64,000 nt of DNA, taken from the NCBI RefSeq assembly GCF_900167535.1, contig NZ_FUYE01000007.1, positions 186,001-250,000 on the forward strand. The letters are read 5' to 3'. The notes beneath the pieces were generated by a model that did no database searches, was not told the origin of the DNA, and was given only the letters and a program-made list of their open reading frames with translations. The stretch is from Prosthecobacter debontii. Lineage in GTDB: Bacteria; Verrucomicrobiota; Verrucomicrobiia; Verrucomicrobiales; Verrucomicrobiaceae. Below, one piece after another: positions 33,565-39,027 of the stretch. Position numbers and translations under genes: made by a program. Position 1 is the first letter of the stretch; the number at the start of each line of letters is the position of its first letter.

Positions 33565-35478
33565 TCACTCGGCTTCATCTTTAAACATGCCGAGGGCTTC
33601 GAAGGGTAGTTTGAGACCTTCGCGCAGGACTTTGCTGCTGAGCTTGGCCCCAGTGGTCGCGGTTTGAGAGGTGCCTTTGAGCAGGCTTTTCACGCCGCCG
33701 ATGGGTCCCTCAGGGGTGACCTGGATATCATCGAGCGGACCGCTGACTTCCATATCGGTGAAGACATGACTGAGGGGTAAGGTGATACGGCCGACGATGC
33801 CACGCAAGTTCGCGCGGGCTTTCCCCTCCACGCGGCGTTTGACGAGATCCACGGTGCCCTTGGCAGTGACGGTGACGGAGTTGCTGCGGGCCTTGAAGGG
33901 ATCAATGGTGGCGATGCCTTTGGACATGTTGAAGCGGACCTGAAAACTGCCCACACCCGCACGCCCCCGATCCGGCAGCACTTTGGGGAAGAGGGTGTAA
34001 GCCTGCTCGATGAGGGGGATATGAACGACAGGAGCCTCGGTCAGGACGAGGCTGCCACTGCCTGTGGAGCGGATGGGCTGATTGCAGACGGAGCCGTTGT
34101 AAGTTAGGGAGAGATCGGACTCCGCCAAGTCATCACTGATTTTCCCCAGCCAGGGACTGAGGCGAGCGAGGCGGAGGGATTTGAGCGAGAGTTTGGCTTT
34201 TTTTAGAGTTTCACCATCGTAGCTGAGGGCGTCCAGGGTGAAGTGACCATCCAGCAACCGGCCTTGCAGGTCATCGAATCGCCAGAGGCTGTCTTGGCGT
34301 GAAACCGCACCCGTAAGCTGATCCACGGCCAAAGGATGATCCCTGACGGTGAGGATGAGTGAAGCAGGACTACGCAGTTGGAGCCGACCCAGAGTCCAAT
34401 CCGCACGGGAACTCCGGGGCAAGGGCCAGACGAGGTCGGTGAGGAGGAGATCGGGAAAGGTCTTCACCTGGACCGTGGTGGGGATGTGCTCGGCCAAGGG
34501 GGGATAGGTGCGGGCAAGCTCCAGAACATCGGCGGGGCCTTCCAAACGAGCCACGGTGAGGGTCCGTTCTTCACCCCCCAGGTAATGGGCCTGGAACTCA
34601 TCCGTGCGTCCGGTGCTATCCGTTAAAGTCCCTGCAATGAGGAGCGGCCCAGGCTGCCAACTTTCGCGGGTGAGTTTGACCCGGGAACTGCCCGTCAGGA
34701 GCTGGAGGTCACAGGTGAGGTCGAGTCCCGCATCGCTCGCTCGCCCTGTGACAAGCGCCTGACGCAGGGGCAGGCCGCGCCATTCAACGTCCTGGCCTTC
34801 GCCTTTCAGATCAGAGGTCCAGGTCATGGGGAGGGTGCGGCGATCCACCGTGAAGCGGCCTGTGACTCGGAAGGGCCCCGTGCCTGGGGTAAACTGGAGT
34901 GCCGTGAGGGTGGCCCGAAGCGGGCGGAGCCGAAGGTAGAACTCGCGCGGAGATTCCCCTGGAGAGGGTGGGGAGGTGAACAGCGTGCCCGTCAGTGCGA
35001 TGGTCAGCGGGCCCTCGGTAGCTTCCAGATGGGTGAATTCCGCTTGGCCAGCCGCCACCGTGAAATCCGTGCTGAAGCCGTGTAAAGTGACCGCACCCTC
35101 CTCGTCTCTCAGCACCAGGGTGGTATCCTCCGCCTGCCAGCGGGTGGCGATGCGCCGCGTGTCCCAAAAATCCCGCCAGAGGAGATCCACATGCAGTTCG
35201 CCGATTTCCAGCAACGGCGGTTCTCCTGCCGAGGTGTGTTCTAAGGCTGCCTTTTCCAGGGTGATGCCTCCCCAGAGCGACCAGGTTTGCCGCTCCGACC
35301 TGAGCACGAGCCCGCGCTTGGCCAGTTGGTCATTGATCCGCTCGCGCGCGCTGCTGATGAGGCCCTGATAGACGGCCCAGAGTAATAGGCCGAAAACGAG
35401 GAAAGCCAGCAGCCAACGAAGCCCCCGTCGCCTCGCGGTCGGAGGCACGAGAACGAATTGAGCGGATGACGTGGACAT
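33565..35478 (-). CDS. AsmA-like envelope protein (637 residues)
   Basis: One membrane helix near the N-terminus (LLAFLVFGLLLWAVYQGLI) anchors a long periplasmic part built from repeated beta strands, as in the AsmA/YhdP/TamB group. The C-terminal portion has the AsmA_2 type: FNMSKGIATIDPFKARSNSVTVTAKGTVDL, then VGRITLPLSHVFTDMEVSGPLDDIQV. Such proteins form groove-like bridges for lipids between the membranes. A second, unrelated-looking AsmA-type gene lies at 44503-46038. The gene is divergent from the hybrid kinase gene at 35730. Confidence 0.72.
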   Translation of the reverse strand: MSTSSAQFVLVPPTARRRGLRWLLAFLVFGLLLWAVYQGLISSARERINDQLAKRGLVLRSERQTWSLWGGITLEKAALEHTSAGEPPLLEIGELHVDLLWRDFWDTRRIATRWQAEDTTLVLRDEEGAVTLHGFSTDFTVAAGQAEFTHLEATEGPLTIALTGTLFTSPPSPGESPREFYLRLRPLRATLTALQFTPGTGPFRVTGRFTVDRRTLPMTWTSDLKGEGQDVEWRGLPLRQALVTGRASDAGLDLTCDLQLLTGSSRVKLTRESWQPGPLLIAGTLTDSTGRTDEFQAHYLGGEERTLTVARLEGPADVLELARTYPPLAEHIPTTVQVKTFPDLLLTDLVWPLPRSSRADWTLGRLQLRSPASLILTVRDHPLAVDQLTGAVSRQDSLWRFDDLQGRLLDGHFTLDALSYDGETLKKAKLSLKSLRLARLSPWLGKISDDLAESDLSLTYNGSVCNQPIRSTGSGSLVLTEAPVVHIPLIEQAYTLFPKVLPDRGRAGVGSFQVRFNMSKGIATIDPFKARSNSVTVTAKGTVDLVKRRVEGKARANLRGIVGRITLPLSHVFTDMEVSGPLDDIQVTPEGPIGGVKSLLKGTSQTATTGAKLSSKVLREGLKLPFEALGMFKDEAE

Positions 35479-35581
35479 GGCACACAGAGGCTAGGGACCG
35501 CAGCCTTGGGTGGCTTTCCCAGGCGCTCCCATGTACTCGTTTCCGTGGGGCCCACCGCGTGTACCTGAACCGGTGACGCTG

Positions 35582-35597
35582 TGAAGGTGCACCTTCA
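35582..35597. promoter_or_regulatory. 16-base perfect palindrome in a divergent promoter region
   Basis: TGAAGGTG followed by its exact reverse complement CACCTTCA, with no spacer. It lies 104 bases upstream of the AsmA-like start and 133 bases upstream of the hybrid kinase start. It could be an operator for either gene. No regulator is identified. Confidence 0.4.
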
Positions 35598-35625
35598 ATC
35601 CGCCTGACCTAAGCTAAGACATGAA

Positions 35626-35653
35626 CTGACAAAAATGAGAGAAACTGTATTAA
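35626..35653 (+). promoter_or_regulatory. Candidate promoter for the hybrid histidine kinase gene
   Basis: CTGACA (35626-35631), a 16-base spacer and TATTAA (35648-35653) in an AT-rich stretch. The palindrome at 35582 lies about 30 bases upstream, where an activator could bind. Confidence 0.4.
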
Positions 35654-35729
35654 CATTTAGCTCCATTCTTCAGCATTAAGGATTGCAAAAAGCCTTTCTG
35701 AAAGGAGGAGTTCCCGATTCCTTTTTCTG

Positions 35730-37337
35730 ATGCAGCGCTCCTTCCGCCTTCTCCTGATCGACGATTCGGCTGATGATGCCGAAAACGTGATCCGGACGCT
35801 GCGTCGCGGAGGACTGGAGCCTGAGGCGAGACAGGTGTGGGACTGGGAGAAGCTGGAGACGGCACTCCAGGGAGAAGCTTGGGATTTCATCCTGTGTGAT
35901 CACCGCCTGCCGACGTTCGACTCCAGCGATGTGTTGAATCTCGTTCATCGCCTGAAGCTCACGGATGTACCGTTCATTTTGATCTCGGGAGAGATCGATG
36001 TTCAAACGGCGGTGGCAAAGATGCGGGAGGGAGCCTGTGACTTCATTTTGAAGGATGACCTGTCTCGGCTGGTTCCGGCGATTCAGCGGGAGAGGGAGCA
36101 GGCGCAGATGCGGAGGGAGAAGCAGCGTGCGGAGCAGGAGCTGCGTGAGTCTAACCAAAAGCTGCGTCTCACGCTGAATTCATTGACGACGGTGCAGCAG
36201 CAACTGATCGCTTCAGAGCGGTTTCGTGCCTTGGGACAGATGGCCAGCGGCATCGCGCATGATTTCAATAACTCTTTGGCGAAGATCCTGGGCATCACGG
36301 AACTGCTGGAATGTGGCCCGAATCCAGATTTGGTCTTGCTGCAACAGCTCAAAACCATCGTGGGCGATGCCGCCGCAGTGGTGAGACGTCTGCTGGATTT
36401 TTATCGGGATCATCCGGTGAAAAAGATGCGAGCGGTGGAAACGGCGGAGATCCTCAAGGAAGTGAAGGACTTTACCCGGCCCCGCTGGCAGAATGGCCTG
36501 ACAGGAGGGGCGGAGATGGTGGAAGTGATCGTCAAGGCTCACGCGACGGGGCAGGGACTGGCCGATGCCTCGCAGCTCCGCGAGATTTTGACCAACTTGG
36601 TTTTCAATGCCTGCGATGCGCTGCCGAAAGGTGGGGTCATCGAGCTCATCTCCCGCGATGCTGAGGAGCAGGTGGAGATCGTGGTGAAAGACAATGGCTG
36701 CGGGATGAGTGAGGAGGTGCTAAAGCGCTGCCTGGAGCCTCTCTTCACCACCAAAGGAGATCTAGGAACGGGCATGGGGCTGGCCATTGCCGCAGGGTTG
36801 GTCGAGTCATTCGGAGGCAGCTTGCGGGTGGAAAGCCAGGAAGGCAACGGCACCTCCGTGATCGTGAGCCTGCGTCGTGCCAATGCTGAGATCCGGCGGG
36901 AGGTGCCTGCGGGGACAAAGAAGGCAGAAACGCCCCCGAGTGCACAACACGGTTTGAAGATCCTGGTGGTGGATGATGAGCGAGTCATCACCGATTTATT
37001 GGCTCAAGTCCTGGCTCTGAGCGGCCATGAGGTGAAGGCGTTTTATGATCCGCTGGAGGCACTGAAAGCGGTGGCAGAGGAAAGCTTCGACGTGGTGATT
37101 TCAGACCGTTCCATGCCAGGGCTGAAAGGAGACTCATTAGCCTCTGAGGTGAGGCGCCTGCATCCGCAATGCCGATTCATCATGATGACCGGATTTGGAG
37201 ACATCATGATGCTGAATGCGGAATTGCCGAGCGGAGTGGACTTGATCTTGACCAAGCCTGTCACACGCAAATCCTTGGAGGCAGCTTTACGAACTCTCGT
37301 GCCTGACCGGGGTGCTCCAGCGCCTCCAGCAGTCTAG
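35730..37337 (+). CDS. Hybrid histidine kinase with receiver domains at both ends
   Basis: The 535-residue protein reads REC, coiled coil, HisKA, HATPase, REC. REC1 (1-120) has Asp57 (ILCDHRLP) and Lys108. A charged helix (115-165) leads to the phosphoacceptor His177 (GIAHDFNNSL), the NtrB-type H-box. The ATP domain has Asn293 (NLVFNACDAL), DNGCGM (321-326) and GTGMGLA. REC2 (410-525) has the acidic pocket DDE, Asp459 (VISDRSMPG) and Lys509. There is no membrane segment, so the first receiver probably takes the input and controls the kinase. The nearest ribosome-binding-like GGAGG is 21 bases before the ATG. It is followed after 43 bases by another kinase and a response regulator. Confidence 0.92.
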   Translation: MQRSFRLLLIDDSADDAENVIRTLRRGGLEPEARQVWDWEKLETALQGEAWDFILCDHRLPTFDSSDVLNLVHRLKLTDVPFILISGEIDVQTAVAKMREGACDFILKDDLSRLVPAIQREREQAQMRREKQRAEQELRESNQKLRLTLNSLTTVQQQLIASERFRALGQMASGIAHDFNNSLAKILGITELLECGPNPDLVLLQQLKTIVGDAAAVVRRLLDFYRDHPVKKMRAVETAEILKEVKDFTRPRWQNGLTGGAEMVEVIVKAHATGQGLADASQLREILTNLVFNACDALPKGGVIELISRDAEEQVEIVVKDNGCGMSEEVLKRCLEPLFTTKGDLGTGMGLAIAAGLVESFGGSLRVESQEGNGTSVIVSLRRANAEIRREVPAGTKKAETPPSAQHGLKILVVDDERVITDLLAQVLALSGHEVKAFYDPLEALKAVAEESFDVVISDRSMPGLKGDSLASEVRRLHPQCRFIMMTGFGDIMMLNAELPSGVDLILTKPVTRKSLEAALRTLVPDRGAPAPPAV

Positions 37338-37380
37338 ATAGGGTCCCCGTTGAATAGGCCTCAGCGCGCCTTCCCTGATT

Positions 37381-38550
37381 ATGATCGATTTTTTCAGCAA
37401 GCTTTTCGATACCAGCGGCTTTCCAGCTCGCTGGCACTGCGGCATGTGGGACGAGGGGCACGGCTGGCTGCACATCATTTCGGATACGCTGATTTTCGGG
37501 GCTTACACCTTGATCCCGGTCAGTCTGCTGATCTTTGCCTGGAAGAAACATCGCGAGATCCTGTTTGCGAAACTGGTGTGGCTGTTTGCGGCTTTCATCT
37601 TGGCTTGCGGCATTGGGCATTTGATTGAGGCGACGATCTTTTGGCATCCCTGGTATCGCTTTTCCGGTTTGGTGAAAGCGATCACGGCATTGGTCTCGTG
37701 GGCCACGCTGATCATGATCATTCGTCTTTTGCCCACGGCCCTGCATGTGCCGGGCTTGCTCACCGTGAATAAGAAATTGGAGTCTTTGGTGGAGGAACAG
37801 GGGCGCACGACCAAAGAGCTGCAACGGAGCAATGAAGACCTGAATCAGTTTGCGTATGTGGCGTCCCATGACCTGAAGGCCCCCTTGCGTTCCATTCGTA
37901 GTCTCGCAAGCTGGATTGAGGAGGACTGTGAAGGCATCCTACCGGAAACGAGCCAACGGCATCTCAGCCAGCTCAAAAACCGTGTCGAACGCCTGGATGC
38001 TCTGCTGAACGATCTGTTAACGTACTCTCGCTCCGGCCGCGAACTCTCGGCTCCTGAAAAGGTGGATGTGCTTCAGCTTGCTAAGCAAGTGACAGATTAT
38101 CTCGTGCCGAGCGAGGGGGGCTTTAAGGTGGAGATCGACGCCAAAGGCATTGAGTTTGTGACGTGGCGGGTGCCCATGGAGCAGATTTTACGCAATCTGG
38201 TCTCGAACGCATTGAAGCATCATGGGGGAGCGTCTGGCGTGATCAAGATCGCGGCGGAAGTTAAACCGGACCGGGTGCTGCTCAGCGTGAGTGACGATGG
38301 GCAGGGCATTGCGCCGGAGTTTCATCAGAGGATCTTTGGCATGTTTCAGACGTTGAAGTCCAAAGATGAAGTCGAGGGCTCAGGGATGGGCCTAGCGATT
38401 GTTGCACGTCTCGCGGAACGGATTGGCGGACGCGTTACCTGTGAGTCCGATGTGGGAAAAGGCTCGCGTTTCACCCTGATTCTGCCTTTGGTGCCTCCTC
38501 CTGAATACGTAACTGACCTCCAGATTAAACTCCGCAAACATGGCCTCTGA
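37381..38550 (+). CDS. Membrane histidine kinase with an ethylene-receptor-like sensor domain
   Basis: The 389-residue protein begins with three membrane helices (about residues 32-118). They match the ethylene-binding domain of plant ETR1 and its cyanobacterial relatives: Asp35-x6-Tyr42 and Pro46 in ISDTLIFGAYTLIP, and Cys76-x3-His80 in ACGIGHLIE. These correspond to ETR1 Asp25, Tyr32, Pro36, and the copper ligands Cys65 and His69. A coiled coil leads to HisKA with His163 (VASHDLKAPLRSI), and HATPase motifs NLVSNALKHH, DDGQGI and GSGMGLAIV. There is no GAF domain, unlike the ETR1 family. It should autophosphorylate and pass phosphate to the receiver encoded by the overlapping next gene. Ethylene binding is an inference. 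Confidence 0.88.
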   Translation: MIDFFSKLFDTSGFPARWHCGMWDEGHGWLHIISDTLIFGAYTLIPVSLLIFAWKKHREILFAKLVWLFAAFILACGIGHLIEATIFWHPWYRFSGLVKAITALVSWATLIMIIRLLPTALHVPGLLTVNKKLESLVEEQGRTTKELQRSNEDLNQFAYVASHDLKAPLRSIRSLASWIEEDCEGILPETSQRHLSQLKNRVERLDALLNDLLTYSRSGRELSAPEKVDVLQLAKQVTDYLVPSEGGFKVEIDAKGIEFVTWRVPMEQILRNLVSNALKHHGGASGVIKIAAEVKPDRVLLSVSDDGQGIAPEFHQRIFGMFQTLKSKDEVEGSGMGLAIVARLAERIGGRVTCESDVGKGSRFTLILPLVPPPEYVTDLQIKLRKHGL

Positions 38551-38977
38551 ACCCATTTCCCTGCTTTTGATCGATGACGATGACGTGGAAGCGGAGATGG
38601 TGCATCGCTCGCTGAAGAAGGTCAAAATCGCTAATGAAGTGATCCGTGCTCGCGACGGTATCGAGGGCTTGGCACTGCTGCGGGGGCAGGGGGAAAGGAA
38701 GATCTCAGGACCCGTTTTGATCCTGCTGGATCTCAACATGCCCAGGATGAATGGCTTGGAATTCCTGGAGGCGATCCGCGCCGACGAACGCCTGCAGCAA
38801 TTGGTGGTCTTCGTTTTGACCACCTCGAATGACGAAAACGATAAAGCGGCCGCTTACACCCAGAATGTAGCGGGCTACATCGTGAAGTCACACGCAGGCC
38901 GGGACTTCATGAACCTGATGGATATGATCGAGATGTTTTGGAGACTGGTGGAGTTCCCTCAGGCACCCCAAGCGTGA
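38540..38977 (+). CDS. Rcp1-like single-domain response regulator
   Basis: The 145-residue protein is one receiver domain: acidic cluster IDDDD, phosphoacceptor Asp64 (ILLDLNMPRMNG), Thr94 (VFVLTTSNDEN) and Lys116 (AGYIVKSHAG). No output domain is fused. The variant with VLTTS, DxxxAYxxxVAGYIVK and a C-terminal helix FWRLVEFP matches the Rcp1/phytochrome-partner group. It overlaps the upstream kinase gene by 11 bases, so the two are coexpressed and should form a cognate pair. Output is probably by protein contact or further phosphotransfer. Confidence 0.9.
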   Translation: MASEPISLLLIDDDDVEAEMVHRSLKKVKIANEVIRARDGIEGLALLRGQGERKISGPVLILLDLNMPRMNGLEFLEAIRADERLQQLVVFVLTTSNDENDKAAAYTQNVAGYIVKSHAGRDFMNLMDMIEMFWRLVEFPQAPQA

Positions 38978-39027
38978 GATGGGCCGAGTGACTTGATGCA
39001 GGGCTTTTCTGCGGCAGGTTCGCCCGC

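Follow-up and report, generated by a model that had tools for sequence, protein, structure and literature searches.

A limited number of bacterial ethylene receptors have been studied experimentally, in the sources covered from Cyanobacteria and Azospirillum. In the case of Azospirillum, the ethylene-binding kinase AzoEtr1 is encoded together with an overlapping single-domain regulator, AzoRR, and proteins of this family from both Azospirillum and Synechocystis bind ethylene (PMC11819568). The Synechocystis receptor SynEtr1 (Slr1212) has a GAF domain by which it responds to light in addition, and its regulator Slr1213 switches on transcription of csiR1, a small RNA (PMC11819568, PMC7700396). 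Seven residues of plant ETR1 are needed for ethylene binding (PMC11819568); among these, C65, H69, I35, P36 and I62 have been named in the binding site, Cys65 being a copper ligand and His69 a putative one, and the published domain model has copper as the direct ligand (PMC6586836). Ethylene reduces the kinase activity of ETR1 and, indirectly, that of SynEtr1 (PMC11819568).

In this study, we have analysed a 64,000-nucleotide stretch of DNA from Prosthecobacter debontii, hereafter the window, and describe three consecutive genes (Table 1) that encode a hybrid kinase, a compact kinase with an ethylene-receptor-type sensor and an Rcp1-type response regulator. It is probable, in our judgement, that the three products form one circuit, in which the compact kinase would be Cu(I)-dependent and ethylene-responsive. 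An earlier note on this DNA had proposed a possibly undescribed ethylene- or redox-sensing module. Its reading of the sensor type, the Rcp1-type partner, the missing GAF domain, the verrucomicrobial setting and the hybrid has stood; the novelty of the module has not, as its basic plan is that of AzoEtr1/AzoRR (PMC11819568) and compact forms lacking GAF and PAS occur in several phyla, including other Verrucomicrobiota and a Novosphingobium plasmid, and we found no specific evidence for redox sensing.

Table 1. Features of the three-gene locus (window positions)
Feature	Position	Strand	Basis
Stretch of 3.55 kb holding the whole cassette, between the AsmA-like and GH25 genes	35479..39027		congener comparison
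REC-HisKA-HATPase-REC hybrid kinase, 535 aa, first cassette gene	35730..37337	+	Pfam; N-terminal receiver Asp57
Compact ethylene-receptor-type histidine kinase, 389 aa	37381..38550	+	ETR1_N + HisKA + HATPase_c (Pfam)
N-terminal region with three-helix ethylene-binding-type domain	37381..37746	+	Pfam 27-122; predicted helices
Cys20, near-invariant in bacterial domains, no aligned ETR1 Cys	37438..37440	+	alignment
His31, near-invariant in bacterial domains, Gln in ETR1	37471..37473	+	alignment
Asp35, equivalent to ETR1 Asp25	37483..37485	+	alignment
Cys76, equivalent to ETR1 Cys65, copper ligand in ETR1	37606..37608	+	alignment; PMC6586836
His80, equivalent to ETR1 His69, putative copper ligand in ETR1	37618..37620	+	alignment; PMC6586836
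HisKA dimerisation/phosphoacceptor domain	37840..38037	+	Pfam; phospho-His163 at 37867-37869
HATPase_c catalytic domain with N and G boxes	38173..38490	+	Pfam and sequence
Rcp1-type single-domain response regulator, 145 aa	38540..38977	+	Pfam; solved relatives; phosphoacceptor Asp64 at 38729-38731
Overlap of kinase and regulator genes, 11 bases	38540..38550	+	ORF coordinates

AzoEtr1/AzoRR resembles the window pair in its N-terminus with the seven residues, its histidine kinase and its overlapping downstream regulator devoid of an output domain. However, AzoEtr1 is longer (525 aa), contains a PAS domain and falls in another clade (PHGxC, see below), its regulator is weakly similar to that of the window (phmmer E 7.7e-5), and no hybrid kinase has been reported alongside it. 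Another pair is encoded on a plasmid of Novosphingobium sp. ES2-1, where a 384-aa kinase free of PAS and GAF domains overlaps the gene of a single-domain regulator, although this pair belongs to the PHG clade and has no adjacent hybrid kinase; its regulator gave no phmmer match to the window regulator at E <= 1e-3. The plant ETR1 family shares with the window sensor the three-helix domain and the same seven residues, and differs in its GAF domain, its mainly kinase-independent signalling and its N-terminal Cys4/Cys6 disulfides.

The kinase ORF, from its ATG to its stop codon, has the coordinates and frame given in the earlier note, and its start codon lines up with those of its homologues. The Pfam domains are ETR1_N (residues 27-122), HisKA (154-219) and HATPase_c (265-370), and the phosphoacceptor His163 and the N and G boxes are intact. 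The profile search against the ethylene-receptor N-terminal family gave 109 bits (E 1.5e-31) for ETR1_N (PF25487), whose curated cut-off is 27 bits; as this is the only such domain in the 6.29-Mb genome and is conserved in relatives (50-73% identity over the domain), the match stands far above chance. No GAF or PAS domain was found by Pfam in the gap of ~30 residues between sensor and HisKA, and the protein thus differs from the plant-type receptors (ETR1/ERS1), in which a GAF domain follows the sensor, and from SynEtr1 as well.

Site equivalents were numbered by alignment with ETR1. The complete list of the seven ETR1 residues is reportedly that of Wang et al. 2006. In the alignment, all seven are kept in the window kinase (window/ETR1: D35/D25, Y42/Y32, I45/I35, P46/P36, I73/I62, C76/C65 and H80/H69), with the spacing of ETR1 except that the TM1 and TM2 groups lie one residue farther apart, so that the five pairs and the near-identical spacing already noticed in the earlier reading are borne out. 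The sensor might nevertheless be vestigial, with a dead copper site and a kinase that is constitutive or gated by a partner. Such decay is known in the family, where 9 of 99 rows lack the D, C or H of the copper site, and yet the seven residues, Cys20/His31 and the kinase boxes are all intact here, which makes this reading very improbable. Degenerate sites were seen in six loci (L195, L196, L199, L200, L088 and L197), for instance SFMPLSA and DFMAICF compared with DYIPICH; these members are possibly repurposed sensors.

A structure prediction of the N-terminal domain, which had been suggested as a check, places three helices at residues 25-55, 62-86 and 92-121 (AlphaFold2, mean pLDDT 75, 15 sequences), as in the three-transmembrane-helix ETR1_N family. 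The basic K55-K56-H57-R58 stretch that joins TM1 to TM2 is consistent with an N-out topology. In an indicative model of the full-length kinase (mean pLDDT 71, shallow alignment), a helix spanning residues 126-182 runs into the DHp carrying His163. Neither sequence nor Foldseek searches found a related solved structure in the PDB, and Foldseek of the predicted sensor returned nothing meaningful.

Apart from the seven residues, the sensor carries Cys20 and His31, which are near-invariant across about 100 bacterial domains (91/103 and 89/103, respectively), in both of the clades described below. Plant ETR1 has no Cys in the first column and a Gln in the second, and this near-invariance in bacterial sensors, set against the absence from plant ETR1, is new here. 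Cys20 is present in 88 of the 90 rows with an intact D/C/H site and in one of the nine with a broken site (Fisher p ~2e-9, a value overstated by the relatedness of the rows through descent), and it nevertheless seems that Cys20 and the copper-site residues disappeared jointly in at least two lineages. Cys20 might be the counterpart of the Cys4/Cys6 pair that forms the ETR1 dimer disulfide, or a helper of the metal site.

The maximum-likelihood tree of the domain, built with an Azospirillum entry (L092) and leaving out SynEtr1, separates two sides with 100/99 support. The window kinase lies on the RWxCGxW side with other Verrucomicrobiota and Planctomycetota, whereas the Azospirillum protein, Acaryochloris, Novosphingobium and plant ETR1 (on a long branch, its exact position being unsure) lie on the PHGxC side. 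That the window sensor lies in a different clade from AzoEtr1 and plant ETR1 is a new observation from the domain sequences. That no tested receptor was placed in the RWxCGxW clade counts against the ethylene reading, and it lowers confidence only, clade being no defining feature of function. It also lends some weight to another reading, that the domain binds Cu(I) but detects the copper level, the redox state, oxygen, CO or another small unsaturated gas: copper is itself the direct ligand in the published domain model (PMC6586836), and the extra Cys20 and His31 might make up a second site, of metal or thiol type, or protect one. However, I45, P46 and I73, whose equivalents are needed for ethylene in ETR1, are kept as well, and the bacterial members reported as tested in the sources covered, from Cyanobacteria and Azospirillum only, bound ethylene, so we regard a non-ethylene ligand as unlikely. 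The response to ethylene that we prefer is supported by the seven binding residues, the ETR1_N match and the ethylene-binding members of the family.

The regulator has Response_reg as its sole Pfam domain and keeps the acidic pocket, Asp64, Thr and Lys of Rcp1-type single-domain regulators; among solved structures it is closest to the Deinococcus phytochrome regulator (6xvu) and Rcp1 (1i3c). Its ORF likewise runs from an ATG to a stop codon in the expected frame, and the 11-base overlap of the kinase gene with that of a single-domain Rcp1-like receiver, as first proposed, is confirmed. In the nearest relative (genome G474), the pair is found on a 62,060-base contig (locus L038) with unrelated flanks, at 67% identity for the kinase and 71% for the regulator. 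From the gene overlap and this co-conservation, we infer that kinase and regulator are two-component partners. Separately, in five genomes of one genus of a sister family (L078, L080, L081, L085 and L086), compact ethylene-type kinases occur as orphans, no response regulator being detected near them.

The hybrid gene lies directly upstream, and the earlier suggestion that its product may feed into the pair is strengthened by comparative genomics. The cassette is flanked by an AsmA-like gene (33565-35478, minus strand) and a GH25 gene (from 39028). The latter is kept at 71-84% in most of 47 congeners, none of which has an orthologue of the hybrid (best full-length match ~31%), and in three of them (G046, G016 and G013) the AsmA-like and GH25 genes adjoin with a gap of ~0.2-0.35 kb and all three cassette genes are absent. 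Full-length homologues of the hybrid (55, 45, 44 and 40%) were found only in another family of the order (f81). In two of these genomes, G528 and G507 (loci L131 and L133), the hybrid, an ethylene-type kinase (56-57%) and an Rcp1-type regulator (62-65%) directly succeed one another in the same order, between unrelated genes. Because the order of the trio is conserved in these two genomes of another family and the three genes are jointly absent from the three congeners, the hybrid appears, on this comparison of sequences, to be part of the cassette, which is new here. Moreover, a REC-headed kinase comes after the kinase/regulator pair in L039, L053, L058, L077, L082 and L091 (the last at the locus edge), and by our own count such a kinase adjoins the pair at 9 of 13 pair-bearing loci; as a rough inference, chance would produce this adjacency at a few percent per locus, despite ~110 kinase-like candidates per genome.

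A plain two-gene system, in which the kinase and its regulator work by themselves and the hybrid lies beside them by chance, would account for the loci where the pair has no adjacent hybrid (L038 of G474, L040 and L075). We had favoured an unrelated neighbour on the L038 pair alone and dropped it on the trio of G528 and G507, whose unrelated flanks, together with the joint absence and the missing orthologue in the congeners, make accidental adjacency an improbable explanation. The separate contigs of hybrid and pair in G474 still count against a single unit. Both contig edges carry a repeat and an insertion sequence, and the repeat and insertion-sequence end after the hybrid recurs directly upstream of the kinase (96% over 304 bases), which fits an operon split by the insertion sequence. 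The repeat with inverted ends and its insertion sequence were located at L130 1-345, after the hybrid, and at L038 3910-4975, before the kinase.

For a single three-gene circuit, we propose the following model, in which copper, ethylene binding, phosphate flow and the direction of the response are all provisional. The membrane domain of the compact kinase, a dimer of three-helix units, would most likely bind Cu(I) through Cys76 and His80, together with Asp35, and the kinase would respond to ethylene. Movement of TM3 could be passed along the helical linker of ~30 residues to the DHp with His163, with no GAF or PAS domain between, a route supported, with moderate confidence, by the predicted helix unbroken from just past TM3 into the DHp. 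By analogy with ETR1 and SynEtr1, ethylene would probably lower autophosphorylation. Phosphate might then pass to Asp64 of the regulator and/or to the N-terminal receiver of the hybrid, which may relay the signal as a REC-controlled kinase of the LvrB kind. In the LvrA/LvrB system of Leptospira, a sensor kinase phosphorylates a REC-headed kinase, as proposed here, and the receiver of LvrB is able to switch the kinase on (PMC13269768). This is an analogy alone, as the sensor of LvrA differs from that of the window and the hybrid, with LvrB as its best NCBIfam model, scores 158.6 bits against a cut-off of 500. Within the cassette there is no DNA-binding or c-di-GMP output, which also counts against the model.

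Genomes with an ETR1_N domain numbered 14 of 68 in the same family, 43 of 387 in the order, 51 of 384 in the class and 24 of 388 in a draw across the phylum; ~6-13% of the Verrucomicrobiota genomes sampled have one. Their architectures range from compact EBD-HK forms (~375-420 aa) through forms with PAS domains or fused receivers to very long multi-kinase proteins. The cassette itself is patchy, and gain and loss, both compatible with this pattern, cannot be told apart: a strong claim of gain by transfer was withheld, as loss elsewhere is possible and the GC content is unremarkable (54.7-57.8% compared with 56.8% for the window). No insertion borders could be placed against the congeners, whose intergenic sequences have diverged beyond alignment with the window, and promoter and terminator scans gave no signal above shuffles. 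The locus is probably a transferable signalling cassette. As far as the open literature searched extends, the new elements are the cassette of three genes, its scattered occurrence and a receptor-type kinase of compact build in a clade where we found no tested member; that search returned no paper on ethylene receptors of Verrucomicrobiota or Planctomycetota, and a prior listing in a survey is possible.

A bolder synthesis, which we offer tentatively and think somewhat doubtful as a whole, is a horizontally moving three-gene ethylene-sensing phosphorelay in a second major EBD clade (Verrucomicrobiota and Planctomycetota), with Cys20/His31 on the outer face of the membrane and direct drive of the kinase in the absence of GAF and PAS domains. 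If true, ethylene signalling would also operate in phyla from which no receptor has been studied experimentally, and the window receptor would indicate how far such signalling reaches among bacteria. A minimal sensor-to-kinase receptor in the second clade offers a test of the domain parts needed for ethylene binding, the defined three-gene unit provides a testable path from sensor to output, and Cys20/His31 are a simple mutational target. The trio is probably a portable gas-sensing switch of a known kind that recurs in other bacteria.

Several minor observations were made at related loci. Directly upstream of the G528 cassette lies a REC-REC protein (L131 4452-5348) that is like the hybrid minus its kinase part. 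In another congener (G017, locus L120), a sulfatase-like gene occupies the cassette's spot between the GH25 and AsmA-like genes, so the site may be one where genes come and go. The Azospirillum entry of the tree (L092 4001-5577, from A. brasilense MTCC4038 p1) is split into ORFs of 207 and 318 aa that overlap; it looks like the AzoEtr1 orthologue, and, as the two lengths add up to the published 525 aa, the gene is likely frameshifted in that assembly. In Verrucomicrobium sp. BvORR034 (L045/L067), an EBD-PAS-kinase-receiver gene is likewise present as two overlapping ORFs, through a frameshift, a sequencing error or a real split, whereas BvORR106 (L044) has one ORF of 687 aa. Finally, on the Novosphingobium ES2-1 plasmid (L093), typed as conjugative, the compact ethylene-type pair lies beside a type II Cas9 gene.
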